From positions 1 to 25,027 of IMG/VR virus record IMGVR_UViG_3300042505_001542: DNA of 25,027 nt, one strand, 5' to 3'. The notes below the pieces were generated by a model. The model was not told the origin of the DNA and did not search any database. It worked only from the letters and a program-made list of their open reading frames with translations. The stretch comes from a virus. The stretch's first letter is position 1. Every line of letters starts with the position of its first letter. Shown here in pieces: positions 12,076 through 25,027 of this stretch. The translations under genes were made by a program, and so were the position numbers.

Positions 12076-12474
12076 TTAGAGTATTTTGATTGCTTTAAGT
12101 AGCACAACAACGGCCAGCACATATAAAATTGCTTTTCTCGGCTCCTTCATCCCGGTGCCGTTGCGTGCCATACTGTGCGCCCACTTTTCGCAATTGTTCA
12201 TTAATATATTAAAATCATCATTTGCCTTATTGCCAAAGTGCGCGAGCATTTCTTGGGTGCTACTTCCACTAAGCACTGTTTTTTCGCTGCCTTGCAGTTC
12301 TCTTTTTTCCAAAAACATTTTTAACGAAATAATACTAGCGCCACCGCCACCGCAACTGCTATGCTGTGCTATCAGCTCTGCTCCTGTGGTGTTATCTATT
12401 ACAATTCCGTAATGCCGGAAAAGCGGATTCCCAAGCATTTGCCGCCAAATAATATCGCCATTTTGCAATTTCAT
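12076..12474 (-). CDS. LRAT/NlpC-P60-like cysteine hydrolase with C-terminal membrane anchor
   Basis: The protein has 132 residues. NGDIIW near the start, RHYGIVID with His21, and NNCEKWAH with Cys95 follow the order of the LRAT (H-rev107) fold: H-box first and NCEHF-like box last, the permuted form of NlpC/P60. A membrane helix closes the protein (about 115-130). LRAT-type enzymes transfer or cleave acyl chains of phospholipids, and bacterial relatives cleave amide bonds. Tail-anchored in a membrane, it could remodel lipid during virion entry or assembly, or cut cell-wall peptides. The motifs are seen; the substrate is inferred. The EKW in place of EHF is a deviation. Confidence 0.7.
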   Translation of the reverse strand: MKLQNGDIIWRQMLGNPLFRHYGIVIDNTTGAELIAQHSSCGGGGASIISLKMFLEKRELQGSEKTVLSGSSTQEMLAHFGNKANDDFNILMNNCEKWAHSMARNGTGMKEPRKAILYVLAVVVLLKAIKIL

Positions 12475-12792: not shown

Positions 12793-13635
12793 TTACTTTT
12801 TCAAGAGCCGCGCCCAGAAGATCTCCTTTTTGATCTTTAGGTCTGCAGTCGGGTTATTCTTCTCAAAGGTGTCAATTCCTATAAGGTCGTACTTGCCTGG
12901 CTCCTTCATCCAGCGCACCAGGTTTTCCGGTGTTGGTGTCAGTCGCTTTTTATTGTCTGCCCCTTCATCTACAAATTGACTGTATAACGAACGGTTTGCC
13001 TCAAATGATTGCGCTACTTCCAGTATTTGTGACATGCTGAGTTTAGCAAACTCGCCTGCGCTTCCCATTTCGGAAAGTTTGGCCACTTCTGCCTTGGCCG
13101 CTGCTTTTTCGCTATCGCTACGCTTGGCCTTTTCTGCTTTGCCAGACTTGCTGCCGGTGGCTTTATTTGGCGCTTCTTTGTGGTAGCCAGGATAATATTT
13201 ACGGGTTAAGGTAATTTCTTGAAAGCCATTTTTAGGCCTGCCGGTCTTTACAAAGTCTTTTTCGGATAGCTCCTTGATAGCTGCATCTGTATCGGCCTCA
13301 TCGCTTCCTTTTCTTGCCGTGAATGATGAACTAAATAACTCGTGGCCCTGACCACGCCTATGTATCAGCATTTTTAAAGTGCGCTCAGCATTTAATGAAA
13401 GTCGAGGACCTTCAACATTTACTTTGGCCTTCTTTGCCGCTTTCGGCTTTGCCTTGCTCAATTGATCATTAAGCGCGGCCACGTAGTTGTCAATGCCAGC
13501 TTTAAAGTCGCCACCTTCTGAATAGAATGGTGCCACGGCTTTGAGTTGTTCACCGTCCTGCTTCATGCTGGCCGGTAGTTTGGACCAATCTACCTTGGAT
13601 AGATCTGCCGCGAATTGTTCTGCTCTTACTTTCAT
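12793..13635 (-). CDS. Basic polyvalent-type protein
   Basis: The protein has 280 residues, Lys/Ala-rich, with linkers (KPKAAKKAKVNV; KAEKAKRSDSEKAAAK) that separate small modules: about 1-60 helical, 75-145 a winged-helix-like part (RTLKMLIHRRGQGHEL, then QEITLTRKYYPG), 195-280 helical. No TM. It starts within the stop of the 868-residue gene (GAATGA). Its make-up and place suggest a protein that travels with DNA into the host, as proposed for polyvalent proteins. No specific enzyme motif recognised. Confidence 0.55.
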   Translation of the reverse strand: MKVRAEQFAADLSKVDWSKLPASMKQDGEQLKAVAPFYSEGGDFKAGIDNYVAALNDQLSKAKPKAAKKAKVNVEGPRLSLNAERTLKMLIHRRGQGHELFSSSFTARKGSDEADTDAAIKELSEKDFVKTGRPKNGFQEITLTRKYYPGYHKEAPNKATGSKSGKAEKAKRSDSEKAAAKAEVAKLSEMGSAGEFAKLSMSQILEVAQSFEANRSLYSQFVDEGADNKKRLTPTPENLVRWMKEPGKYDLIGIDTFEKNNPTADLKIKKEIFWARLLKK

Positions 13636-16238
13636 TCTGCTGCGTATTTGTATTTCATGGCCATGGCCACTGCCAAGGCGCGTGCTTTTATCTTTTCAAT
13701 AGAATCGGTTGGTGGCTCCACCAGCGGCTTTGCGTAATATCGTTCTTTGGCCACTTTATCCACGGCCAGTGTTATGCTTCCATTGCCAGATAGCAGCAAG
13801 TTGCCCTTGCCACCTTCTATGCGGTATTTATTGCCTTTGGGCATTGGTATTTCCATTACCACCACGCTTTTGGTGTTCCATACCTCAAATGCCTTCTTGT
13901 CAATGTTCCAGTGTACTGTCCAGCCATATTCCTTCACTCCTTCGTGAATCAGTTTGCCAAACGCTTCTGCAGAAATTGGGCTTTCTTGCGTTCCGGGTGC
14001 TTCATTTTTCTGAAATAGCCTTTCAAATGTCTGTTGGGCGTTCAGACCTTCGGTCCATGCTTGTTGCAGTTCAAATTCTTTCGCTTGCAGCATTCCGGTG
14101 GCATCGCTTCTGTCTACGCCAATATCGTTTTGAATACGAAATAGCATTTTCTCGTACCAATTGCCATAGGGTTCAGGCTCTGCCTTTTGCAAAGTGTTAA
14201 CGCTCATAAATCGCTCCTGGTTCCCGTCCTGTACCTTGGCCACGCCTTCTTGGTCCATTTCTATAAACGTGACAGAAGTCATACCATGATCCTTGAACTT
14301 TTTCTCTAGCGTATCGCCTTTCTTCCAGCCCTTTGGTGCTTTGATTGGTGGTTTGCTGTCGGCTCCGGCAAAGGTGTTTGCGCTGGCCTCGTCTTTGAAG
14401 ATAAAACCAGGCACGGCACCGTTGCCACGGAAACTGCTGTAGTATGCTCCTGCTGCTTTGGCCTTGTTTCTAAGCTCGTTAAAATCTTCTGCAGATACGC
14501 GCCCGGTCATGGTAACGGTCCAAATGTCGCTGCCCGTCTTGGTGTGCTTTCCTGCTACTACATTAAATTCAATGTCGGAAGCTGAAACGATTGGCTTAGT
14601 GCTTACCGGCTTTTTATCTGGCTGCGTTACTTTCTTTTGCGCTTTTGGCTGATCAACTATGCCTGCAATCTGCCTTGCGTTTTTCCATGCGCTTTCTACT
14701 CGTTTGCCATAGTATTCTTCAAATTGATCTTGCTTGGTGTAGCCATAAAGTTTCATGGCCAGCCCTTTGTATTCTGCCAAACTCATGGCAGCAGCATCCT
14801 TGTCCAGCTCTATAGAAGATATGGAAGCGGTCAATTTATCTTTGAACGCATACCCTTTTTTCGGGTGCTCTGGTGGAATAAAACGTATGTCATAATCCAT
14901 AGACCACCTGCTGCGTCCGTTTGGCGCTTTGGTAATAATGGCCGAAATGGTTTTTTTACCTAGTTCGTTCCAATCCCTTGTATATTTTACAATGGTCCAT
15001 TTTGGAACCAGCCCAAGTTCTTGTTTGACTTTGGCAGCTTCTTCGCTTCGCTTCTTGGTCTGTGCATCCCACTTCTCGGAGGATTGCTTCCAATCTTCCA
15101 CTTCCTTTTTCCGGTCTGCAAATAGTTTTGCATCCCAATCGTCCGTGTTTATATCAACATGGTCGTAAAAATTGGTATTGAAATAATCAATCTGACCATC
15201 AGAATCACTAAAACGGTACTGCTCCAGAATGTTCTTAGCAATAGCCTCATCTTTCAGGTACTGAGCACTGTATATTGTTTTATAGTGACCATGGTAACGA
15301 TCATGGTTTCTGGCCTTATGATAGCCACCTAGCTCATTGGCCAGATCAATAAACTCTTGTGCATAAGGGTTATGCGGATAATTGGTGCCATTTGCACTTA
15401 TGCTGGCACCGCCAGAAAAAACATCTGTGGTAACGCTCCACTTCATTTCTGGAAACGTGACCTTGTACTCTTCTCTGGCCAGCGCGGCAATGTCCTTGGT
15501 GGCCAGTCCTCGCGTGTTTTTGTACGCGGAACCTTCCCACCTGTAGCCTGTATATCCACGGTCTGGCTCCTTGAATAAATAAGGCTTAGTGGCTTTTAGC
15601 ACCGGTGTTACTGACCTGAAAAACTGGTCGGTCATTTGCTTTACAAATTCATCGCTGGAGTAAGTGCTCCAGTCGGCACCTTCTGCAGTTGCTTTATCGA
15701 CAAAGTTGAAACCGGCCAGAAGGTTGGCATCATTCTGCACGCTGCCCTTTATCTTCAATCGGTGCTCTGTGAAAAATGCCTTATCCACGATAATGCCCGG
15801 TGCTTTCGGTTCGTCCTGCTTGTCGTTGTTCAGCGCATCTTTCCATGCATCGCCTATGTGGCTATCGCCATCGCCCTCACTTTCTGTAAGGCCAAAGGTA
15901 TTGGCACTGAAACCGGAACCGGGTTTAGGTTGGTCGCGTTGCGGCACTTCGCCTGCATCGAGCTTCTGCTCAAATATGGCCACGGCCTTGTAATGTTCGG
16001 CCTTAACGGTGGCCTCAGTTGCGCTGCCTGTTACTTCGCCAAGCTCAATTTTTGGAGCCCTGAACATATTCCATACCAGAGAACCATCTTCGTATTGCCA
16101 AGCAGTTGCGTAGCTGGCAATTTTGCCGCTGCTGCGTTTTAAGGTGGTTATTTTCCATGTATATTCATCCTGGTCGCCCGGAAAACTTGTTTCTCCGGTC
16201 CATCCGTGGCTGCCTTTATATATTTTAGATAAACTCAT
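13632..16238 (-). CDS. Large multidomain polyvalent protein
   Basis: The protein has 868 residues, the largest product here. Modules by eye: 8-95, a WKITTLKRSSGKIASYATA domain common in Bacteroidota mobile-element polyproteins; 247-330, KDIAALAREEYKVTFPEMKW then SVTTDVFSGGASI, matching LPD29; about 395-470, an alpha/beta stretch; about 575-640, YYSSFRGNGAVPGFIFKDEA, another segment frequent in such proteins; about 650-690, a small beta barrel; and a C-terminal tag ALAVAMAMKYKYAAE. No catalytic site is clear. Polyvalent proteins are thought to enter the cell with the genome and counter defences. It is flanked by a 38-bp direct repeat. Confidence 0.7.
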   Translation of the reverse strand: MSLSKIYKGSHGWTGETSFPGDQDEYTWKITTLKRSSGKIASYATAWQYEDGSLVWNMFRAPKIELGEVTGSATEATVKAEHYKAVAIFEQKLDAGEVPQRDQPKPGSGFSANTFGLTESEGDGDSHIGDAWKDALNNDKQDEPKAPGIIVDKAFFTEHRLKIKGSVQNDANLLAGFNFVDKATAEGADWSTYSSDEFVKQMTDQFFRSVTPVLKATKPYLFKEPDRGYTGYRWEGSAYKNTRGLATKDIAALAREEYKVTFPEMKWSVTTDVFSGGASISANGTNYPHNPYAQEFIDLANELGGYHKARNHDRYHGHYKTIYSAQYLKDEAIAKNILEQYRFSDSDGQIDYFNTNFYDHVDINTDDWDAKLFADRKKEVEDWKQSSEKWDAQTKKRSEEAAKVKQELGLVPKWTIVKYTRDWNELGKKTISAIITKAPNGRSRWSMDYDIRFIPPEHPKKGYAFKDKLTASISSIELDKDAAAMSLAEYKGLAMKLYGYTKQDQFEEYYGKRVESAWKNARQIAGIVDQPKAQKKVTQPDKKPVSTKPIVSASDIEFNVVAGKHTKTGSDIWTVTMTGRVSAEDFNELRNKAKAAGAYYSSFRGNGAVPGFIFKDEASANTFAGADSKPPIKAPKGWKKGDTLEKKFKDHGMTSVTFIEMDQEGVAKVQDGNQERFMSVNTLQKAEPEPYGNWYEKMLFRIQNDIGVDRSDATGMLQAKEFELQQAWTEGLNAQQTFERLFQKNEAPGTQESPISAEAFGKLIHEGVKEYGWTVHWNIDKKAFEVWNTKSVVVMEIPMPKGNKYRIEGGKGNLLLSGNGSITLAVDKVAKERYYAKPLVEPPTDSIEKIKARALAVAMAMKYKYAAE
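13638..13675. repeat. 38-bp direct repeat, copy 1
   Basis: Identical to 16238-16275, exactly 2,600 bp away. It encodes the final residues (ALAVAMAMKYKYAA, part) of the 868-residue protein. Copy 2 encodes the same ending of the preceding protein. Confidence 0.9.
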
Positions 16239-16792
16239 GCTGCGTATTTGTATTTCATGGCCATGGCCACTGCCAGAGCTTTGGCGTGTTGGTATGCGTC
16301 AAGGTCAAATGCAGGCGTGTCGCCAATGCATTCGTCTTTGAACTGCTCCAGCTTTTCGTCTATTTCGTGTTCGATCTGTCCTACATCGGTAAGGATCTGC
16401 GCACGGTATTTCACCTTGCCTATTTTCAGGATCTCAATGATCTCTTGGCGTATGCGCTGCTCGTCAAAGTCTGGCGGCAGCAGGTTATCGGCCTCTGGCC
16501 CGTAACGCTCATAGATCTCTTCTGCGGCACGCTCAACGGAAACGCCACGTTTGCTTACCAGGTTTATGTTGATATCGCCACGGGTGCCAACTTTGCCGCC
16601 CGTTTCGCGCTTGGCGCTGGCAGGCGTAATCTTTGGCATGCGCTCCAAAACCACAAGCTCCGGAACGTGATCTTCTGCATAGAGCTGCGCTATCTCCAGC
16701 ATATCTTTTTCGCGCTCCAGTTCGGCCACGTCCAGTTTAAGGCTGTCGCAGTGTTCGTCTTTGGTGCAAGTATGGCAGGTTTCCGTATGCAT
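16235..16792 (-). CDS. Polyvalent-type protein with Cys-rich N-terminus
   Basis: The protein has 185 residues. CHTCTKDEHC at 6-15 may bind zinc. A coiled-coil segment follows (about 18-45), then VSKRGVSVERAAEEIYERYG (about 84-103), like small modules of polyvalent proteins. The acidic helical end carries the tag ALAVAMAMKYKYAA, shared with the 868-residue protein. The ATG at 16792 lies inside an operator-like palindrome and five bases after a TATCTTTG box, so this gene probably starts its own transcript. Confidence 0.6.
   Translation of the reverse strand: MHTETCHTCTKDEHCDSLKLDVAELEREKDMLEIAQLYAEDHVPELVVLERMPKITPASAKRETGGKVGTRGDININLVSKRGVSVERAAEEIYERYGPEADNLLPPDFDEQRIRQEIIEILKIGKVKYRAQILTDVGQIEHEIDEKLEQFKDECIGDTPAFDLDAYQHAKALAVAMAMKYKYAA
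16238..16275. repeat. 38-bp direct repeat, copy 2
   Basis: Identical to 13638-13675. It begins at the first base of the 868-residue gene's start codon and codes for the C-terminus of the 185-residue protein upstream. Confidence 0.9.
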
Positions 16793-16812: not shown

Positions 16813-17196
16813 TTATGCAGTCACAGTAACGCCATTAAGCTCAGAATAGTATTCTGCAGTTTGGCCGTCAAGGTCAAGCACGTACACTTCTGAAAATACA
16901 CTGCCCACCTTATGCAGCAGCGTTACCACCACTTTATTGCCCGGCACGCGGTTCCAGCCTAGCTGCAGCTCGTCTGTGTTGGCCAGTTGGTGGTAAGCTC
17001 CTTCGGTGGCCATTGGTGCCACTATGTTGTGCTTTCCAAGTGCCGGGTGCGAAAAGGTGAACTTCTGCGCGCTCCAATCGGCCCACTGCAGGCGAAACGC
17101 CACTGTGCTGGTGTCCAGCTTCGCTTTCTTGCGAAGGAGTAGGATAACGGCCAGCGCCAAGGCCAGAAGCATGATAATTTTCGTGTTCGTGTTCAT
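16813..17196 (-). CDS. N-anchored beta-rich membrane protein
   Basis: The protein has 127 residues. It has an N-terminal membrane helix (about 7-22, IIMLLALALAVILLLR) with a basic stop (KKAK), followed by a beta-rich soluble domain (VAFRLQWADWSAQKFTFSHP; KVVVTLLHKVGSVFSEVYVL). The plan repeats the N-anchored proteins at 20930-22052. Gap of 13 bases to the holin stop. Candidate virion membrane protein. Confidence 0.6.
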   Translation of the reverse strand: MNTNTKIIMLLALALAVILLLRKKAKLDTSTVAFRLQWADWSAQKFTFSHPALGKHNIVAPMATEGAYHQLANTDELQLGWNRVPGNKVVVTLLHKVGSVFSEVYVLDLDGQTAEYYSELNGVTVTA

Positions 17197-17209
17197 GGCT
17201 TAAAGGGTG

Positions 17210-17689
17210 CTATTCGTTGATCTTGCCATCTTCGTCAAAATCTTTGAGTCGCTTCAATATCCATGAAGGAATCAGGCCGGGCTTAATGGCACCAAGGTTT
17301 TCAATAATGCTTATCGCTTCCCGAACAATTACGGCTGCATAGCCTAAAGTACCTATCCAATCAAATGCCGCTATAACCAGAGGCTTGTTGCTGAAACATT
17401 GCAGTATGTGAACGAGTATTACAAAAACGCCATATACAAAGCCTTTCAATATAACGCCTGTGAAGCCTGAGCTTGATACAGTGCCTTTCATCCACGCCTT
17501 GACAAAGCCCGTAACCGTGTCCAGGAATACCATAACGGATAGGAATATCAGAAACTCCCAATCAGCAAAAACGTACTTGCCGAACACGTCAATGACCGGT
17601 GCGATTATCAATGCTCCGAATATCGGTAACTTGAATTTAGCGGGTTCTACTTGCTCAATCAATCCCGTCCATAGCTGCATCAACTTCAT
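17210..17689 (-). CDS. Phage holin (toxin secretion/phage lysis holin family)
   Basis: The protein has 159 residues. FLIFLSVMVFLDTVTGFVKA (about 48-67) followed by SSSGFTGVILKGFVY is the signature of the phage_holin_4 group: a hydrophobic helix with D-x2-TG-x-h-KA, then S-x4-G-x2-K. Further hydrophobic helices lie at about 20-40, 80-100 and 105-125. It would form inner-membrane lesions that release the GH24 lysozyme. It is 2.4 kb from the lysozyme gene, in the same array. Confidence 0.82.
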   Translation of the reverse strand: MKLMQLWTGLIEQVEPAKFKLPIFGALIIAPVIDVFGKYVFADWEFLIFLSVMVFLDTVTGFVKAWMKGTVSSSGFTGVILKGFVYGVFVILVHILQCFSNKPLVIAAFDWIGTLGYAAVIVREAISIIENLGAIKPGLIPSWILKRLKDFDEDGKINE

Positions 17690-17741
17690 GTCTTTTTATG
17701 CTGGTTCAGTGTTCCAATCCTGCCAACGGGTTAATTACAGG

Positions 17742-17933
17742 TCAATCATTCGGTAATTCAGTCACGCATGCTGCCAGTTCCTCTTCACTCAGCCCCTGTC
17801 CGTCATTTACAAATAGGGCTGTCGTGCCATTTTCAAGGTCTTTAGATTCCCAAAGCCATTGGCTGACCAATCCATCAGACTGTATGGAGTTTCGCTCTTT
17901 CGCTTCTGCTGTGGGTAGTATTAGATATTTCAT
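17742..17933 (-). CDS. Unknown 63-residue protein
   Basis: Soluble, acidic (MKYLILPTAEAKERNSIQSD; LSEEELAACVTELPND). Its start overlaps the stop of the attachment-protein candidate by one base. Small proteins of this look after a receptor-binding gene can be chaperones or minor spike parts; there is no direct evidence. The 52 bases after it (17690-17741) contain nothing recognisable. Confidence 0.45.
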   Translation of the reverse strand: MKYLILPTAEAKERNSIQSDGLVSQWLWESKDLENGTTALFVNDGQGLSEEELAACVTELPND

Positions 17934-19015
17934 CAGATGTCGTATAGTTCCATTAATAGTGCCTCAACTGTCGTACTTAAATCGCCTGCATCAATGCAGT
18001 AGGCGTAACTTGCCGCCTCATTTGCTCTGAAATTCCCGCCATTATCACCGTACAGATATTTGATCGTGTATGCCTTTGTTAAAAATGCTGCGGCTGATCC
18101 GCTTGATACTGTCAATGTTTGAGCAACTCCGTTATACTTAACTATTGGGGCTGCGTTCTTAAACTGCGCGCTTAATAGGTGTCTCGATGTCAACCGAAGT
18201 GCGGGTGTGTAAACCACATTGGACGAGTCGTACATACTGATACTGTTTGCCGATCCGACAAGTGCAGAATTGATAAACATTGTAGTGCCAGAATCGGTTG
18301 TAATCCTCGTGTTACTGGTAATGTTGAAGCTCATTTTCTGTATTAGATACTCGGTGCTTGTCTGATTTGCTGCCAGTCCTGAAACCAATGTAACAGGCAT
18401 TCTTTGCGCAACTACACCGTACCACTCTGGAAACACGTCAAACGAATCACCTTTTAAAACGGGTTGTAGGCTTGCAGTGGTCTGCGTCATATCACCATTG
18501 GAAGCCTGGTTGTAACGGGTTACGACCGTGAAAGCAGAGGTGCCAACGAATGTGGTTATAGCGGATATATCACCTACTCCGTTTGTATATGGAATGTCTG
18601 ATTCAGCCCCTGTGTCCGTCCGTCTTATCCTTATCCATTGACCTGCGTATGCAGAAATCAATTTGTAGTAGCTGAATACTGCTTTAGGGCTTACAAATGG
18701 AAGATCTACGGTGGTCGTTACTGAGACTGAATTAGCGGCAATTGTTACCCCGTCCGTGGCCGTTACGACAATATTATCAGTGCCTATGTTATTAGCCGTC
18801 CACACATAGACGTTTGATGCCTGAGTAACCGGTACCAGATTGCCATTCTTATCGGGAAGCCCGAATGTGTAGCTTGTACCCAAGAATCCCGACACTGTTA
18901 TGGTAACTGCATCACCAAAGTTAGGCGTTGAATCGCTTAGTGCTATACTCAAAGACCCACCAGGCGCACCACCACCTGGCTGCTGTAATGGTTTTGGGTT
19001 TTCGTTCAGTATCAT
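17933..19015 (-). CDS. Candidate receptor-binding/spike protein with Ig-like domain
   Basis: The protein has 360 residues. A Pro/Gly-rich N-terminus (NPKPLQQPGGGAPGGSL) may attach it to the particle. An Ig-like domain follows (about 22-105: IALSDSTPNFGDAVTITVSG ... VTATDGVTIAANSVSVTTTV), then a large beta domain (about 110-340) resembling concanavalin-like or LamG-like shells found on phage adhesins (SAYAGQWIRIRRTDTGAESD). The amino-acid and codon texture differs from its neighbours, with fewer GGC/GCC codons, which suggests later acquisition. No TM. Host attachment is inferred. Confidence 0.6.
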   Translation of the reverse strand: MILNENPKPLQQPGGGAPGGSLSIALSDSTPNFGDAVTITVSGFLGTSYTFGLPDKNGNLVPVTQASNVYVWTANNIGTDNIVVTATDGVTIAANSVSVTTTVDLPFVSPKAVFSYYKLISAYAGQWIRIRRTDTGAESDIPYTNGVGDISAITTFVGTSAFTVVTRYNQASNGDMTQTTASLQPVLKGDSFDVFPEWYGVVAQRMPVTLVSGLAANQTSTEYLIQKMSFNITSNTRITTDSGTTMFINSALVGSANSISMYDSSNVVYTPALRLTSRHLLSAQFKNAAPIVKYNGVAQTLTVSSGSAAAFLTKAYTIKYLYGDNGGNFRANEAASYAYCIDAGDLSTTVEALLMELYDI

Positions 19016-19021
19016 GGCCTA

Positions 19022-19351
19022 TTATCTAAGCTGCCAAAGAATCCAATGCACTGTGGGCTGGGTAGCATCCGCACTTGCTAATTTTACCAGATCAACTTCT
19101 ACATCGTAAAGTTCCAAGCTGTCGCCATCGTAAATAGGATAGCCATTAGCAGATGTTGGGGCAGCTCCGTCAAATGTGAGCCAAGCAATTGGTGTGGTGC
19201 CACCTGTTTGCGATGCGTGTTTTACAAATCGAGCGCCTGCGCCATTTGCCAACAGATTATTATTTAGAGTAGTGCTTCCGCCACTAACTGGAATGGCTAA
19301 AACGCCTTGGTCTATGAATGTCTGCGATGAATAGCCTCCTACTTTTTGCAT
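19022..19351 (-). CDS. Unknown beta-rich 109-residue protein
   Basis: MQKVGGYSSQTFIDQGVLAI is followed by regular beta-like segments and an end of VHWILWQLR. No TM or signal. It lies directly upstream of the attachment-protein gene (6-base gap) and after a tail-anchored peptide gene. A minor capsid or spike base protein of small jelly-roll type would fit the size. No family recognised. Confidence 0.5.
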   Translation of the reverse strand: MQKVGGYSSQTFIDQGVLAIPVSGGSTTLNNNLLANGAGARFVKHASQTGGTTPIAWLTFDGAAPTSANGYPIYDGDSLELYDVEVDLVKLASADATQPTVHWILWQLR

Positions 19352-19358
19352 GGTCTTT

Positions 19359-19523
19359 TCACTTTCTGGTTACTGTATTTGCCAGCATTGTGGCTAAAAA
19401 TATGGTTACGAAAAAAACGCCTGCCACGGTCAGCAGTTCGCTCATTGGCACGCGAGCATCCACCTGTATGCTTTTCTTCCCGGAAAGCACTTCGTTCACG
19501 TTAATCATCGTTTCGTTCAGCAT
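19359..19523 (-). CDS. 54-residue tail-anchored membrane protein
   Basis: ATG at 19523; MLNETMINVNEVLSGKKSIQ then a membrane helix (about 31-50, LTVAGVFFVTIFLATMLANT) ending TRK. It fills the gap between the lysozyme and the 109-residue gene. Its start overlaps by a few bases the end of the lysozyme -1 frame (stop at 19533-19535), leaving ten bases between them. Confidence 0.6.
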   Translation of the reverse strand: MLNETMINVNEVLSGKKSIQVDARVPMSELLTVAGVFFVTIFLATMLANTVTRK

Positions 19524-19532
19524 GCCTAGGCT

Positions 19533-19601
19533 CTATTTATTTTTGTAGATTAAAAACACAATTGCTGCTATCATGAATACAATGGCTATGATGTAGGCTT
19601 T
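19533..19601 (-). CDS. Membrane-anchor extension of the lysozyme (-1 frame)
   Basis: A -1 slip on the A10 tract would replace the last four residues of the lysozyme by 22 residues, KAYIIAIVFMIAAIVFLIYK plus NK. This is a typical membrane helix with a basic end, just like the tails of the neighbouring proteins, and it is open exactly until the next gene. Without the slip the 50 bases between lysozyme and next gene would be idle. Alternatives: one missing base in the assembly, or transcript slippage. Confidence 0.5.
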   Translation of the reverse strand, partial: KAYIIAIVFMIAAIVFLIYKNK

Positions 19602-20050
19602 TTTTTTTCATCTGTAAAAAATAGCTCTGCTTCGGCCTTCCTTCTATTGGCAAGTCCTTGCACGAATCTTCCACCTGCCCGGTTCCAACGCAGCCACGCT
19701 TCTGTAATGCGCTCCTGAGTGTCATAAGCATTAATGCGTTCTTTCAGCGTGCTATCGCGAAAAGCAGCGCTGCCTATATTGAAGATGAGCGAAACAAGCG
19801 CATCAAACTGGTTCTGGTTCAATGGTGCCAATACCTGCCCACGAATGGCAGCTTCTGCAATACCGGCATCCTTCTTTTTCAGCGCCATTGCATCTACCTT
19901 GGTCAAGGTGGCGCTCATAAGGTGCTGCTCGTTCGGCAATATCAAATGGCCATAGCCAATGGTCCAGTAGCCTGCCACGTCCTTATAGGCTGTGGGGCTG
20001 AACCCTTCCCATTGGGTAATGAACTTAATGCCGTTGTCAGATAGTGTCAT
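19586..20050 (-). CDS. GH24 (T4-type) lysozyme, endolysin
   Basis: The protein has 154 residues. WEGFSPTAYKDVAGYWTIGY gives the catalytic set Glu15, Asp24, Thr30 of T4-type lysozymes, followed by GH. LNQNQFDALVSLIFNIG (about 79-95) and WNRAGGRFVQGLANRR (about 122-137) are the usual C-terminal GH24 blocks. No signal peptide or SAR helix at the N-terminus, so release depends on the holin, unless the virion carries it. The end DEKKKPTS lies on a 10-A tract where a -1 shift adds a membrane helix. Start overlaps the previous stop. Confidence 0.92.
   Translation of the reverse strand: MTLSDNGIKFITQWEGFSPTAYKDVAGYWTIGYGHLILPNEQHLMSATLTKVDAMALKKKDAGIAEAAIRGQVLAPLNQNQFDALVSLIFNIGSAAFRDSTLKERINAYDTQERITEAWLRWNRAGGRFVQGLANRRKAEAELFFTDEKKKPTS
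19599..19608 (-). other. A10 slippery tract at the lysozyme 3' end
   Basis: On the minus strand GAA AAA AAA AAG: the heptamer A-AAA-AAA stands in the zero frame, the canonical form for -1 frameshifting, and the tract is long enough for polymerase slippage. The T10 in the plus strand is also a place where an assembly could lose a base. Confidence 0.6.
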
Positions 20051-20370
20051 GCCAACTTGTAAAGTATTAGAGCCACCACAACCAGAATAATGATCATAGT
20101 GGTCTTTGATTCAGCGGGTAGCGGTAGCTCCACAATGGGTCCTGTTTCAATCTGAATATCGTTCTTATTCAATCTGATAAGACTTTGTGCATTGCCACGC
20201 CCTTGACCTGACTGTGGCTGGGCAATGCGCGGAAAGTAGTTGCTTGGGTATGGGCTTTGTCCACAAGGCCATGAGCCGGATTCTACCCAACCGACCGATG
20301 ATTCGACCAATCTTCGGTGGGTGCATCCGCCCCCTACTGTTGTAATTGTCTGAAATCTAAATCGTGCCAT
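20047..20370 (-). CDS. Tail-anchored 107-residue protein
   Basis: It starts MARFRFQTITTVGGGCTHRR, with a Gly/Pro/Gln-rich middle (YFPRIAQPQSGQGRGNAQSL) and a C-terminal membrane helix (about 90-106, TMIIILVVVALILYKLA). Two cysteines. It overlaps the lysozyme start by four bases. Likely a virion membrane protein; no family recognised. Confidence 0.6.
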   Translation of the reverse strand: MARFRFQTITTVGGGCTHRRLVESSVGWVESGSWPCGQSPYPSNYFPRIAQPQSGQGRGNAQSLIRLNKNDIQIETGPIVELPLPAESKTTMIIILVVVALILYKLA

Positions 20371-20405
20371 CTCTTATGTTTTTCGGATTATGCTTTGGGC
20401 TGTTA

Positions 20406-20483
20406 TCATGGCCTTAATACTTTAATGGTGATAAGCAGAGCCGCAATAATGGCCCACCTTACCATGCAGGTGTTGTCTTTCAT
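20406..20483 (-). CDS. 25-residue membrane peptide
   Basis: MKDNTCMVRWAIIAALLITI, then KVLRP. The ATG overlaps the TGA of the preceding mini-gene (ATGA). One short hydrophobic helix. Its coupling supports translation, but at this size chance cannot be excluded. Confidence 0.35.
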   Translation of the reverse strand: MKDNTCMVRWAIIAALLITIKVLRP

Positions 20484-20581
20484 CTGTCTGAGATAATTGA
20501 TACCAGGACCATAGCGCTCACTATTACAAAGAATAGTGTGAGGCTATCTTCCCACTGTTTTTTTTGGCAATTTTCGCACAT
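20480..20581 (-). CDS. 33-residue CxxC membrane peptide
   Basis: MCENCQKKQWEDSLTLFFVI continues as a membrane helix and ends SDR. CENC at 2-5 could bind metal or form a disulfide. It starts three bases before the stop of the upstream frame at 20584 and is coupled to the next mini-gene. With it, the 210 bases between 20370 and 20584 are almost fully coding. Confidence 0.4.
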   Translation of the reverse strand: MCENCQKKQWEDSLTLFFVIVSAMVLVSIISDR

Positions 20582-20583
20582 GG

Positions 20584-20748
20584 CTATCTATTTAATAGGT
20601 CGGCAATAATGGCTTGGTCAGCATTCGGTTCGTCTGCCAGTGCCATGTATGTGGCTGTGCTATCACGCACCAGCTCATCTACACTATATGCACCGGCAGA
20701 CTGATCCGAAAGTGGTACGCTTACGCTGCTACATCTGCCTCTGCGCTT
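20584..20748 (-). CDS. Acidic C-terminal extension reached by -1 shift on A9
   Basis: After residue 49 of the 20894 gene a -1 slip would continue with KRRGRCSSVSVPLSDQSAGA and on to a stop at 20584, 54 residues in all, acidic and low in rare features (SVDELVRDSTATYMALADEP). The frame has no good start of its own (only a TTG at 20778) and the stretch would otherwise be a 137-base gap in a gapless array. The fused product would have 103 residues. Confidence 0.5.
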   Translation of the reverse strand, partial: KRRGRCSSVSVPLSDQSAGAYSVDELVRDSTATYMALADEPNADQAIIADLLNR

Positions 20749-20894
20749 TTTTTTTCGTAGAGGTCGTAGCCTAGCCAAGCAGCAAGGGCCAAACCAACGT
20801 ACAAAGCATAGGTGTACTTCTTGGCGTAAACCAAGTAGGCACCTACAGCAGCGAGTGCAAACGGAGCCATACTCTTCAATTGGGCAGTTTCCAT
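20721..20894 (-). CDS. 57-residue membrane protein with slippery end
   Basis: METAQLKSMAPFALAAVGAY starts a protein with two hydrophobic stretches (about 10-23 and 28-43, split by KK) and a charged end (YEKKSAEADVAA). The size and Ala-rich helix recall small membrane-embedded coat proteins. The A9 tract at 20747-20755 lies under codons GAA AAA AAA. It could be made in two lengths, 57 and 103 residues. 35 bases separate it from the stop of the upstream gene. Confidence 0.6.
   Translation of the reverse strand: METAQLKSMAPFALAAVGAYLVYAKKYTYALYVGLALAAWLGYDLYEKKSAEADVAA
20747..20755 (-). other. A9 slippery tract
   Basis: GAA AAA AAA AGC on the minus strand contains A-AAA-AAA in the zero frame. 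It is the same context (GAA, run of A, GC) and the same shift direction as at 19599-19608. Confidence 0.6.
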
Positions 20895-20929
20895 TTTTAC
20901 TGTTGTTTAGGGTTAATAAATCGGGTTAA

Positions 20930-21223
20930 TTATCCTCTAAGCACCACGCTATAAGACGTAGAAGCTATATTAAAACTGTTGTCTTGACCTGCAGAAGAAC
21001 GCGCATCTGCAGAGCTTACCGGTGTGCGGCTGCCAATGGTGTTGATCGTTGCGGGTGTGCTCCTGTCTGTAATGGTGTTTACTCCATCGCGTATTTCGTC
21101 AGCAAGGTCGATTATAGGTCGCCCGCTATTGGTAGTGGTCGGCTTCACAATGCTGCGAAAAAAGTAGTAATAGATCAGAAGAGCTGCGCCCACAAGTAGG
21201 GCAATTTTGGTGGTGTTGTTCAT
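20930..21223 (-). CDS. N-anchored 97-residue membrane protein
   Basis: MNNTTKIALLVGAALLIYYY gives an N-terminal membrane helix (about 6-23) with FFR behind it, then a polar Ser/Thr/Asp-rich region without cysteines. The K-x-A-x2-VGAALL start resembles the next two genes upstream (21226-21699 and 21699-22052), so they may be old paralogs. Likely exposes its soluble part on one face of a virion or cell membrane. Confidence 0.6.
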   Translation of the reverse strand: MNNTTKIALLVGAALLIYYYFFRSIVKPTTTNSGRPIIDLADEIRDGVNTITDRSTPATINTIGSRTPVSSADARSSAGQDNSFNIASTSYSVVLRG

Positions 21224-21225
21224 GG

Positions 21226-21699
21226 TTAGAATTGAAAGTTTATTCCTTTGTTTGCAATGATCTCGTTAACTTCTGCATAGCCATCTTGGCCTATCCAGCT
21301 TTCGTGTATAAAACTCTGGCCAAGGCCAAGCGGGCCAGAAGGCACGCCAAATATTCGTAGGTTACGGGTGCCGTATGCGTTCACCAATGCGGCAAGGTCG
21401 GCTGCTGTGCTCATTTGTTCAATGATGCTATAGACCGTGCTCCAGCGGGTGCCGCTGTAGTTCATCGCTTCGTGCAGGCTGTCGGCATACATCAAATAGC
21501 GCTCTGGCGGATAACTTAACTGCGAAGTTTGAACCGGCAGCTCGTTATCTTCATTTACTGCCGTTTCGCCCGGACCGGTGAATGCTTCTGTAATGCTGCT
21601 GCCCCAACTTCCTAGCTTATCCATGATAAGCCAAACGCCAAGCAGCACCAATAAGGCGGCACCAACGTAAAAAGCTACTTTTTTCTGGTTCTCGTCCAT
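21226..21699 (-). CDS. N-anchored 157-residue membrane protein
   Basis: MDENQKKVAFYVGAALLVLL starts a membrane helix (about 8-28), then a helical soluble domain (about 60-150: YPPERYLMYADSLHEAMNYS; VYSIIEQMSTAADLAALVNA; NLRIFGVPSG). DLAALVNAYGTRN followed by an FG motif recalls small helical modules of phage structural proteins. One-base overlap with the gene upstream. Function unknown. Confidence 0.6.
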   Translation of the reverse strand: MDENQKKVAFYVGAALLVLLGVWLIMDKLGSWGSSITEAFTGPGETAVNEDNELPVQTSQLSYPPERYLMYADSLHEAMNYSGTRWSTVYSIIEQMSTAADLAALVNAYGTRNLRIFGVPSGPLGLGQSFIHESWIGQDGYAEVNEIIANKGINFQF

Positions 21700-22052
21700 T
21701 ATGCGCGTTTGATTCTGCCAGCGTGGTCAGGGTTGCTGGCCGGTGCTTTCAGGTTGGTAATGATGAAATGCGCTCCAGCCTTATTCACAATGTCAAGCAC
21801 CTGCGCATTGCCCTTTGGTGTTTCCGAGTTGTCGTGGTCAATCACTATGCTGTCGCCCACCTTTAGGCCATGGCCATCGTTTGGCATCTGCAGCCCTAAT
21901 CGGGCATCATTGTACCTGGTAGGCAGCCAGCGGCTGTCTCCAATGTTCACAAACGGTTTCCACTGGCTGCGCCAGAAATAATAGCCCACTATAGCGGTAA
22001 GCAGAAGCGCTCCAATGCCAATGGCATATTTTTGTGTGGTTGTCAGTGTCAT
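21699..22052 (-). CDS. N-anchored 117-residue membrane protein with beta domain
   Basis: MTLTTTQKYAIGIGALLLTA opens a membrane helix (about 9-26) with WRSQWK after it. The rest looks like a small beta barrel (GDSIVIDHDNSETPKGNAQV; AHFIITNLKAPASN). It overlaps both neighbours. Same plan as 16813-17196. Candidate virion membrane protein. Confidence 0.6.
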   Translation of the reverse strand: MTLTTTQKYAIGIGALLLTAIVGYYFWRSQWKPFVNIGDSRWLPTRYNDARLGLQMPNDGHGLKVGDSIVIDHDNSETPKGNAQVLDIVNKAGAHFIITNLKAPASNPDHAGRIKRA

Positions 22053-22498
22053 TTTTTGAATATAAAGTAGCCGATTCCTAGTAGAACGATAACCAATATG
22101 CCTACGGTCATTTTTGACATGCCTAGGATAGTCGTTTGCGAATCGTCCGATTCTCCGTAATTCGGTTCCTCGTAAGTTTCTCCTGGTCCGGTTTCGGTAG
22201 GTGGGGCAGGTGGTAGATTAACACTGCCACCAACTCTCGATATGCTGGCATTTTCCAGTCTTAGGGTTTTTAGTACCGGAATGCCCATAGACGGAAGCGT
22301 TACCGTAACTTTTTGAAGTCCGTCCTCGTTAGAGTTGGAACGTATCGGCAGAGGAATGTCGTTTAATATCCAGCCCGAAGTAATCCCGGACAACTTAATA
22401 AAGCCAGGTGCTTTAATTATGTTTCTCAGAGGGTCATTGACCCACATTGTAAGAACAGAGCCTTCTTTCTGGTAAATAAGTACGGGTGTCTGTGTCAT
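22049..22498 (-). CDS. Tail-anchored 149-residue beta protein
   Basis: It has a beta-rich soluble domain (MTQTPVLIYQKEGSVLTMWV; GLQKVTVTLPSMGIPVLKTL), a Pro/Glu/Gly linker (PPAPPTETGPGETYEEPNYG), and a C-terminal membrane helix (about 131-147) ending FKK. Domain, linker, anchor is the order expected for a peripheral virion protein held on an inner membrane. Confidence 0.65.
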   Translation of the reverse strand: MTQTPVLIYQKEGSVLTMWVNDPLRNIIKAPGFIKLSGITSGWILNDIPLPIRSNSNEDGLQKVTVTLPSMGIPVLKTLRLENASISRVGGSVNLPPAPPTETGPGETYEEPNYGESDDSQTTILGMSKMTVGILVIVLLGIGYFIFKK

Positions 22499-22749
22499 TT
22501 AAGTGCGTATTTGTAGATGAGAAAACCGACCACCAGCACCACGGCCAGCGTCAATAGGTCGTTTTTTGGCTCCACTGGTTTGTTCTGCACGCTCAATTGT
22601 CGGCCACTTCCACCAGTGCCACTGGCACGGCCAAACACTCGATCATAGCAGGCGGCTTTGCGCTCTGCGCTTGCTCCGTGCGGCCAGCCTGTCAGCTCTG
22701 CCCACCAGAGGCACCTTTCCAATCTTGCTTGTGGTCCAAATAATGCCAT
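22495..22749 (-). CDS. Tail-anchored 84-residue protein
   Basis: MALFGPQARLERCLWWAELT then a CYDRVFGR segment and a polar linker. The C-terminal membrane helix (about 65-80, LLTLAVVLVVGFLIYKY) ends ALK. Two cysteines (13, 34) flank a helical hairpin-like domain. Coupled to the next gene by four bases. Confidence 0.6.
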   Translation of the reverse strand: MALFGPQARLERCLWWAELTGWPHGASAERKAACYDRVFGRASGTGGSGRQLSVQNKPVEPKNDLLTLAVVLVVGFLIYKYALK

Positions 22750-22754
22750 GTTTT

Positions 22755-23183
22755 CTATTTCAAGTTTATGGTTACAACTGCAGTAAGTAGCACAACGGCC
22801 ACTGCTAGCAGAATCAAATTCCTTTTTGTGTTATCTGATGTCGTGAATAAGGTTATCTCTGTATCTGTAGGCCCTGAAAATGGGTCGGTAACGGGTTCGG
22901 GTGTAGGTTCTTGGTAAGGTCCTTGCTGCCATGCTCGGTTCCAATCGGCCTCTGATGCCGGTGAAGGGTTGCCAAAGGTGTTGGCCGCTGCATCGCGGTC
23001 TGCCCACTGGTAAACTTTATCGCCTGCCCATCTGATGCCGAGCACATCTTCAATAATGTTGAAGCGCACCACGTAACGCTGGCCGCGCGGACCTTGCGCA
23101 ACGGTGGGGCCATAGGCATCCTGTCTGTAGATGCCATGGCCAGTGCTGTAGGTGTTCGGGTAACTTCCTGCCTGCCAGCTCAT
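22755..23183 (-). CDS. Tail-anchored 142-residue protein
   Basis: MSWQAGSYPNTYSTGHGIYR begins a Gly/Tyr/Trp-rich soluble region, a central RYVVRFNIIEDVLGIRWAGD segment, a Pro-rich linker and a C-terminal membrane helix (about 122-139) ending INLK. Aromatic content is high. A candidate virion protein with the same plan as its neighbours. Confidence 0.6.
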   Translation of the reverse strand: MSWQAGSYPNTYSTGHGIYRQDAYGPTVAQGPRGQRYVVRFNIIEDVLGIRWAGDKVYQWADRDAAANTFGNPSPASEADWNRAWQQGPYQEPTPEPVTDPFSGPTDTEITLFTTSDNTKRNLILLAVAVVLLTAVVTINLK

Positions 23184-23482
23184 CTTACGTTGCGGTAAAT
23201 GTTGAAAACGAAGAGCACAATGGCCGCAATGATCAGCGGATTGATCAACGGCTTGAACCAGTCATCTATCAGCACATGGTCTGGCAAATGTTCGGTTATC
23301 AAATTGCCGCCACACGTAGGTATTCTGGTTCCGTTTCCAAGCTCAATAAAGCCCGGCCTCAAAGCACCACAACCACCAGGCACATTGGCATCCTCAGCAT
23401 TATCGTACAGATAATAGCCTGCTGCCAGATTAGCGTCTGCATCCACCCGCTGGCCTAGCATATTGTAAACGATGCCGCTCAT
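23180..23482 (-). CDS. Tail-anchored 100-residue protein
   Basis: MSGIVYNMLGQRVDADANLA is followed by GGCGALRPGFIEL and RIPTCGG, whose two cysteines may bond, and then a C-terminal membrane helix (about 80-95, INPLIIAAIVLFVFNIY) ending RNVR. Overlaps its neighbours by four bases on each side. Confidence 0.6.
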   Translation of the reverse strand: MSGIVYNMLGQRVDADANLAAGYYLYDNAEDANVPGGCGALRPGFIELGNGTRIPTCGGNLITEHLPDHVLIDDWFKPLINPLIIAAIVLFVFNIYRNVR

Positions 23483-23739
23483 TTTCTAGTAAATAGATAA
23501 ACGACAAAGACCACCACTGCTGCTGCAAGCAGATAGCCTGTCGTGGTGTAGCCGGTTGTTTCGTTGTACTTCTTGCCCGGTATGCAGCGAATGCTGTTAA
23601 GGTTGCTGCTCGGTGGTATGAAACTGGCCACCAGCCCACCAATAACCGGAAAGCTGGCCACTCCTTGCTGAAAGGCTCCTATCCAGGCGTTATCTTCGTC
23701 TGGCGTTGCCCATGTTTCGCCACAAGGTAGCTGGCTCAT
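23479..23739 (-). CDS. Tail-anchored 86-residue protein
   Basis: MSQLPCGETWATPDEDNAWI, a moderately hydrophobic stretch (VASFPVIGGLVASFIPP, about 27-43) that could be a fusion-peptide-like or second membrane segment, and a C-terminal membrane helix (about 68-83) ending FTRK. Two cysteines. Coupled on both sides. Confidence 0.6.
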   Translation of the reverse strand: MSQLPCGETWATPDEDNAWIGAFQQGVASFPVIGGLVASFIPPSSNLNSIRCIPGKKYNETTGYTTTGYLLAAAVVVFVVYLFTRK

Positions 23740-23939
23740 TTTTTGGCAGTAGTGGCAAACACGGCAAAAAGCGCAATGGCAATGGCCAATATCAAGTAGA
23801 TATAAACCACTGGCATTACCTTGCTTTCGGCAGTGTAAACCGGGTTATTGTAAACGGTTTCCGAAGCATTCACGCCCTTGCCTGCTGTTCCCAAAATGCC
23901 GGAGAACATGCCTACAATGGTATTTATTGCCTCATTCAC
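23736..23939 (-). CDS. Tail-anchored 67-residue protein, GTG start
   Basis: It starts at a GTG at 23939 (reads MNEAINTIVGMFSGILGTAG); no in-frame ATG serves it. The frame is the same as that of the gene upstream, which ends in TAA 25 bases before, so read-through would fuse them. C-terminal membrane helix (about 45-62) ending TAKK. The amphipathic N-terminus plus anchor suits a small membrane-bound coat component. Confidence 0.55.
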   Translation of the reverse strand: MNEAINTIVGMFSGILGTAGKGVNASETVYNNPVYTAESKVMPVVYIYLILAIAIALFAVFATTAKK

Positions 23940-23963
23940 GATGTCAAAGAACGTGCGGCACTG

Positions 23964-24509
23964 TTACTTGCGCATGGCAATCACAATGGCCACTATCACT
24001 ACTAGCACGGCTGCGCCAACGGCCAGCCACTGTGCGTTTATTCCTGTTGTTGGTCCGTCCTTGTCTCCTGCAGGCGGTGGTGTGGTGGTGCTGCCACCGT
24101 TTCCGGTGTTGCCAATGGTCGTATTGATGCCACCGAAGATGGAATCAATGATGCCGCCCCAATCCATTTCAGAGTACCAAGACTGGTCCGATCCTTGGCC
24201 GTCCGTGGTTCGCAATTGTGGTGGCGCTGGTCGTCCAGTAATGGCCTCATCGAAACCTGCAGGCAACACGCCATACTTGTATTTCACGTTGCGGATAAGG
24301 CCAAGCGCCTGTGCCTTAATTTGGCCACCGGCATTGTAGGCTCTCACAAGCTCAGAAACCATTTGCTGTGCGGTGCTGTCGCTTTGCGTCAGGCCCCACG
24401 TTTGCATTTGGTTAGAAACGCCCTCGGTGTTGTTCTCAACCACGATGGTAAATAGGTGCAATGGGCTGTTAAGATCTCTCCTTAATGCCGCTTTTTCAGA
24501 TGCTGTCAT
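23964..24509 (-). CDS. Tail-anchored 181-residue protein
   Basis: First gene after the capsid candidate's terminator. The helical N-terminal domain (about 1-110: MTASEKAALRRDLNSPLHLF; VSELVRAYNAGGQIKAQALG) is followed by a Gly/Thr/Pro linker (GNGGSTTTPPPAGDKDGPTT) and a C-terminal membrane helix (about 161-178) ending AMRK. It likely links a membrane to the shell. No promoter box was clear between it and the terminator, so it may depend on read-through. Confidence 0.6.
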   Translation of the reverse strand: MTASEKAALRRDLNSPLHLFTIVVENNTEGVSNQMQTWGLTQSDSTAQQMVSELVRAYNAGGQIKAQALGLIRNVKYKYGVLPAGFDEAITGRPAPPQLRTTDGQGSDQSWYSEMDWGGIIDSIFGGINTTIGNTGNGGSTTTPPPAGDKDGPTTGINAQWLAVGAAVLVVIVAIVIAMRK

Positions 24510-24596: not shown

Positions 24597-25027
24597 TTAC
24601 TGCTTTACAGCGGCAGGATTCACGGTGAACTGCGTGATGGTTCCACCAGCGGCACATGTGATGAAAAGCGCATTTCCAGAATCAAGCACAATGCCTTGGC
24701 CAGAGAAGTCCAGCGTAAGCAGCAATGAGTTCTGCTGCGTGTTTCGCTTCGATGCCTGAATGATGTTCTGCAGCGGTCGCTTGCTGAATGTTCCACCCAA
24801 GTTCACTGAACCGTAGTCAATTGCTTGGCTGAACTGTGATGCGGCACCGACTTCGTAGTTAACCTCACCGATTACCATACCTTTACGCAACATGGCGTTA
24901 AGCACGGCATTCGTGAATGGTGTTCCAGAATCGTAGGAAGTGACGCTGTAAGCGCCCAATGCGGCCACGGCACCTTCCGGGTCGCCAATTTTGATGATCT
25001 CAGCAGCACCAGTGGCGGCAGTGTGAG
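24597..25027 (-). CDS. Candidate major capsid/virion protein, C-terminal part
   Basis: This continues the protein that starts at 290. It contributes residues from about 55 onward here (bases 24901-25027 repeat 1-127). GMVIGEVNYEVGAASQFSQA, NSLLLTLDFSGQGIVLDSGN and GGTITQFTVNPAAVKQ are alternating hydrophobic beta-like strands. No TM or catalytic motif. A GTG at 24966-24968 is not the start. The strong terminator 25 bases after the stop supports a separate, abundant message. Confidence 0.6.
   Translation of the reverse strand, partial: HTAATGAAEIIKIGDPEGAVAALGAYSVTSYDSGTPFTNAVLNAMLRKGMVIGEVNYEVGAASQFSQAIDYGSVNLGGTFSKRPLQNIIQASKRNTQQNSLLLTLDFSGQGIVLDSGNALFITCAAGGTITQFTVNPAAVKQ
24901..25027. 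repeat. Terminal direct repeat (circular closure), copy 2
   Basis: Identical to bases 1-127. Remove one copy to obtain the 24,900-bp circle. Confidence 0.93.

Follow-up and report, generated by a model that had tools for sequence, protein, structure and literature searches.

A GH24 lysozyme gene in a virus genome with an A10 tract and a C-terminal membrane helix in the -1 frame

A tailless phage has to attack the cell wall enzymatically at two stages, locally on entry and in bulk for lysis. GH24 lysozymes are known in membrane-linked form as the SAR endolysins, which carry an N-terminal signal-anchor. In phage PRD1, one muramidase gene supplies both the virion-associated enzyme and the endolysin; its product is P15, which works with the holin P35 (PMC6356626). 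The title of Rydman and Bamford (2002), as listed in PMC5380687, places the PRD1 muramidase with the viral membrane. The lysozyme gene described here may serve the same two purposes.

Bacterial RNA polymerase classically adds bases at runs of at least nine A residues, and the 9 A of Thermus dnaX give ∼50% shifted product (PMC1088944). In tssM1 of Citrobacter rodentium, the gene is interrupted just after a run of 11 A, and an added A leads to short and long proteins; 20–25% of the product is shifted and both forms are required (PMC4256274). The heptamer A_AAA_AAG is the natural shift site of E. coli dnaX, and in Ebola virus GP editing, polymerase slippage on an A run picks between a soluble and a transmembrane form (PMC5009743). 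The lysozyme gene has slippery sites of the same kinds as those used by RNA polymerase in Thermus dnaX and by the ribosome in E. coli dnaX (PMC1088944, PMC5009743).

The genome and the genes around the lysozyme

The window, meaning the whole stretch of 25,027 nucleotides analysed, comes from IMG/VR as a virus record, and its first and last 127 bases are identical (1–127 and 24901–25027). This terminal repeat makes a complete circular genome, 24,900 bases long, the most likely reading. Circular contigs carry an exact 127-base repeat when a short-read assembler with a top k-mer of 127 has built them, and the length of the repeat thus suggests that Illumina data lie behind the contig. Genes are tightly packed and nearly all are on the minus strand. 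For a VapE-like helicase (PF05272), most of the best matches among GenBank phages are to phages that infect Bacteroidota, which makes this the probable host phylum.

Candidates for structural and packaging functions are present. A 211-aa major capsid protein (MCP) candidate, which in a PRD1/PM2/FLiP-type phage would be a jelly-roll protein, spans the contig ends at the circular join and has no sequence match of any kind. A 213-aa packaging ATPase candidate, for which the FtsK/HerA type was considered, has a Walker A motif and weak matches only. Structure predictions made without alignments for this protein and for the product of 21226–21699 (minus strand) were both too poor for use; the latter has an N-terminal helix, and its later part, DSLHEAMNYSGTRWSTVYSIIEQMSTAADLAALVNAYGTR, appears annexin-repeat-like by eye, with no Pfam match. 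Elsewhere, at 13632–16792 (minus strand), adjoining 868-aa and 185-aa proteins share the C-terminal peptide ALAVAMAMKYKYAA(E), possibly a common C-terminal signal.

Positions 16813–24509 encode a series of many small proteins that have a single membrane helix at one end. A small-membrane-protein cluster is a trait of tailless membrane-containing phages of the PRD1/PM2/FLiP type, and we infer that the virion has a membrane. The first-pass annotation spoke of virion membrane proteins around the lysozyme. Its neighbours are indeed small one-helix proteins; they match no family, and their place in the virion is presumed. Two tiny overlapping one-helix open reading frames, MCENCQKKQWEDSLTLFFVIVSAMVLVSIISDR (33 aa) and MKDNTCMVRWAIIAALLITIKVLRP (25 aa), lie at 20406–20581 (minus strand) between larger membrane-protein genes.

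The lysozyme gene (19586–20050, minus strand) has a zero-frame product of 154 aa, a muramidase of the T4-lysozyme type with a complete GH24 domain (Pfam PF00959, E 2.1e-38, profile positions 2–125 of 125). The solved lysozyme 6et6 aligns with it over residues 2–145. A catalytic triad of E15, D24 and T30 is read from the sequence and is aligned in 6et6; its E-9-D-6-T spacing is identical to the 9 and 6 of the T4 lysozyme triad, E11/D20/T26. The product has no N-terminal helix, and the zero frame ends 9 residues past the domain. A second lysozyme was not recognised among the proteins scanned. Since a holin-like protein (17210–17689, minus strand; PF05105, E 1.7e-15) is encoded in the same gene cluster, an endolysin role for the lysozyme is sensible.

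Helices at the C-terminus are a common property of this genome: 12 proteins other than the lysozyme end in a helix 0–7 residues from the C-terminus. Upstream of the lysozyme, a small protein with a C-terminal helix (...MIIILVVVALILYKLA) is encoded at 20047–20370 (minus strand), and its stop overlaps the lysozyme start (ATGA). Downstream, 19359–19523 (minus strand) encodes a 54-aa protein that also has a C-terminal helix. These tail anchors often end in aromatic and basic residues, for example GFLIYKYALK and IGYFIFKK, to be compared with VFLIYKNK in the tail found in the -1 frame of the lysozyme gene. The gene at 12076–12474 (minus strand) encodes an LRAT-like protein with an in-frame C-terminal helix (residues 114–132). 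The match to PF04970 is weak (E 9e-4, below its cut-off), and this protein is a possible in-genome precedent for a tail-anchored enzyme.

The A10 tract and the helix in the -1 frame

The lysozyme gene has an A10 tract at the junction between domain and putative anchor (19599–19608, minus strand; T10 on the plus strand), the sole run of at least 10 in the window. The zero frame reads GCA GAG CTA TTT TTT ACA GAT GAA AAA AAA AAG CCT ACA TCA TAG and terminates four codons past the tract (stop 19588–19586); the first-pass annotation of a GH24 frame ending GAA AAA AAA AAG was right to the base. The -1 frame reads AAA AAA AAA GCC TAC ATC ATA GCC ATT GTA TTC ATG ATA GCA GCA ATT GTG TTT TTA ATC TAC AAA AAT AAA TAG. 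Its product, KKKAYIIAIVFMIAAIVFLIYKNK, is a lysine-flanked membrane helix with a basic end. Past the tract, the tail AYIIAIVFMIAAIVFLIYKNK and its stop occupy 19533–19598 (minus strand; stop 19535–19533) and encode a predicted single C-terminal transmembrane helix. The clean membrane helix noted at first pass as lying just before the next gene is thereby confirmed, the stop being 9 nt from the next ATG (19523). If the tail is left out, a 62-nt gap follows the lysozyme, whereas most neighbouring genes overlap or are less than 15 nt apart.

The -1 frame is closed by a TGA immediately ahead of the tract (19608–19610, minus strand). Because this stop abuts the A10, the full helix cannot be translated separately from an upstream start; within the tail, an ATG at 19574 is the one available start and leaves 13 residues. 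On the reading frames alone, the full helix can be reached only by a change of frame, by the ribosome or in the transcript, in or just after the A10.

Scored by the codon usage of the other genes of this genome, the 21-codon tail has log-odds of +11.8 bits, compared with a median of 5.6 for in-frame stretches of the same length; of 3749 out-of-frame windows free of stops, none scores as high. The best 19-residue hydropathy of the tail is 2.49, and among 200,000 sequences drawn from a first-order Markov model of the genome none was both open and this hydrophobic. These two results argue that the tail is not a product of chance, and the helix very probably belongs to the lysozyme gene. The opposing view detaches the helix from the lysozyme and treats it as a mini-gene of its own or as a hydrophobic stretch that arose by chance. 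Such a mini-gene could begin at the internal ATG, at the cost of all but those 13 residues, and the tail does share its frame with the next gene; but the full helix has no start, the TGA closes its frame at the tract, and both the coding score and the fit to the tail-anchor pattern of the genome go against this view, which we regard as highly improbable.

The tract itself has properties expected of two kinds of shift site. In the zero frame, A AAA AAG has the X XXY YYZ form of a slippery heptamer for -1 ribosomal frameshifting. For transcriptional slippage, the A10 lies within the coding region and reaches the ∼9 or more A/T associated with this process, and one added A gives access to a coding extension. 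Stimulatory signals are lacking: the 81 nt downstream fold no better than shuffled sequences (z +1.29), and no Shine-Dalgarno-like (AGGAGG-like) stimulator is seen upstream by inspection. A ribosomal shift would therefore be weak. The length of the tract is unsurprising, as the probability of A10 or more is ∼0.18 given E-K-K-K and the lysine codon choice of the genome; 0.84 runs of at least 9 are expected in genes and two are seen. The notion that the tract is statistically preserved was dropped, as A10 is no rarer than lysine codon choice predicts.

Slippage and competing readings of the tract

The most likely reading is slippage on the A10, by RNA polymerase or ribosome, such that one gene yields a soluble and an anchored lysozyme. 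We consider this slightly better than an even proposition. Unshifted messages would give the soluble 154-residue GH24 enzyme. One extra A added by RNA polymerase, or a one-base backward slip of the ribosome on A AAA AAG, would carry reading into KKKAYIIAIVFMIAAIVFLIYKNK and yield a tail-anchored lysozyme. With RNA structure and an obvious upstream stimulator both absent, RNA polymerase is favoured over the ribosome as the slipping agent. Slippage would have to occur at a useful rate, and the chance that both forms are made in a meaningful ratio is about one half.

The two forms may differ in function. The soluble form would be the endolysin, released by the holin encoded at 17210–17689. In the anchored form the enzyme would face the host cytoplasm and leave the wall unharmed; this form might then enter the virion membrane, if virions have one, and open the peptidoglycan at entry. 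This fuller proposal, in which slippage lets a single lysozyme gene supply both an endolysin, soluble and acting at lysis, and a virion enzyme, tail-anchored and acting at entry, is tentative and falls a little short of even odds. The two-form reading was already put forward in the first-pass annotation. What stands of it is a helix that is coding by its codon usage, resembles a tail anchor and is reached only via the tract, along with a soluble reading that has a complete GH24 domain and its catalytic residues; an RNA structure that might stimulate a ribosomal shift is missing.

The main rival is that the tract in the contig is off by one A and that the lysozyme is a plain tail-anchored protein with no regulated soluble form; the first-pass annotation had itself named one A lost in assembly as the alternative. 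The codon scores fit such a miscount: the tail is coding straight from the tract, whereas the three zero-frame codons that follow it (CCT ACA TCA) score -1.9 bits and show nothing to suggest that the short form is under selection. The genes on either side encode proteins with in-frame C-terminal helices, and long A runs are places where counts go wrong. Against a miscount, the exact 127-base end repeat points to assembly from short reads, and short reads seldom miscount A10. Moreover, constitutive anchoring would leave no obvious soluble endolysin, as no other lysozyme was recognised among the proteins scanned.

A second A run bears on the same question. The gene METAQ...LYEKKSAEADVAA at 20894–20721 (minus strand) carries an A9 (20747–20755). 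A -1 open reading frame at 20745–20587 (...VPLSDQSAGAYSVDELVRDSTATYMALADEPNADQAIIADLLNR, stop 20584–20586) scores +13.2 bits, with none of 567 out-of-frame windows as high; it lacks a convincing start and stops immediately ahead of the next ATG (20581). In a codon-by-codon comparison, coding character in the zero frame of the A9 gene lasts up to that frame's stop, and in the -1 frame it sets in only after ∼20724. The gene was thus dropped as a second case of shifting or as a sign of a general undercount of A, since its zero frame stays coding past the tract. The A9 seems correctly counted, and this argues mildly that A runs in the contig are counted correctly. On balance a miscount in the lysozyme gene is unlikely, although it keeps appreciable weight. 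The slippage and miscount readings overlap, as some of both products is to be expected from an A run near this length, whatever the exact count.

Alternatively, the A10 may be genuine but a variant arising from replication slippage: the anchor may have been lost recently, or the enzyme may alternate between anchored and free forms by phase variation. Runs of at least nine A are prone to slip in replication as well as in transcription (PMC1088944), and the tail still looks intact, so any loss must be recent. On the other hand, IMG/VR yielded neither a second copy of the window's junction nor a record in which the tract has another length, and slippage is still to be expected on message made from an A10 template. 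A variant tract appears improbable, more so than a miscount.

Relatives of the virus were sought with several of its proteins. None was found in IMG/VR with the MCP candidate, the ATPase, the 868-aa protein or the VapE-like helicase, in GTDB genomes with the ATPase and holin, or among GenBank phages and plasmids with the structural proteins; these scans rely on exact 8-residue words or tblastn similarity, and distant kin could be missed. The first 80 GH24 relatives in IMG/VR end at the domain with no helix fused in frame, and no other gene of the window was detected in their loci; those inspected for context are tailed phages. A query of the domain end joined to the -1 helix gave 37 loci, among which the five tail-region matches of longest length are from tailed phages, share no other gene with the window and have no helix fused in frame to the GH24 end. 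All IMG/VR contigs were scanned for GH24 C-termini with a run of at least 9 A no more than 30 bases further on, with a pattern confirmed to match the window itself. Eleven stretches were found, 10 of them GH24, and in all 10 the tract (A9–A11) is past the stop and no helix is present in the shifted frames. The arrangement of lysozyme, A10 and -1 helix has thus been seen once so far, and this single occurrence neither supports nor refutes programming.

Comparison with known systems

The locus differs from each of the systems it resembles. SAR endolysins are anchored at the N-terminus, whereas the window lysozyme has no N-terminal helix and its putative anchor is C-terminal; it is therefore not of the SAR type. 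The long tssM1 product restores a normal full-length protein, whereas the extension here is a membrane anchor only, and a predicted one. Compared with dnaX, the window has no stimulatory structure, and here the shift would extend the protein by a domain rather than truncate it. Ebola virus GP belongs to an unrelated virus and involves an unrelated polymerase and protein, so that only the logic is common. PRD1 P15 does both jobs as one product and is not known to have a frameshifted helix; in the window lysozyme the anchor is in another frame, and the membrane virion is itself presumed.

Even with a miscounted tract, the layout would be unusual, a GH24 enzyme anchored at its C-terminus and encoded amid genes for small membrane proteins, and no other GH24 gene with such an anchor was seen in the loci examined. 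In the literature searched, no description was found of a slippage-based location switch for a phage cell-wall enzyme. Double use of a muramidase is already known from PRD1; what would be new is an anchor reached by a frameshift. Placed where enzyme and anchor meet, a slippery run would fix the proportion of soluble to anchored lysozyme without a second gene, promoter or protease.
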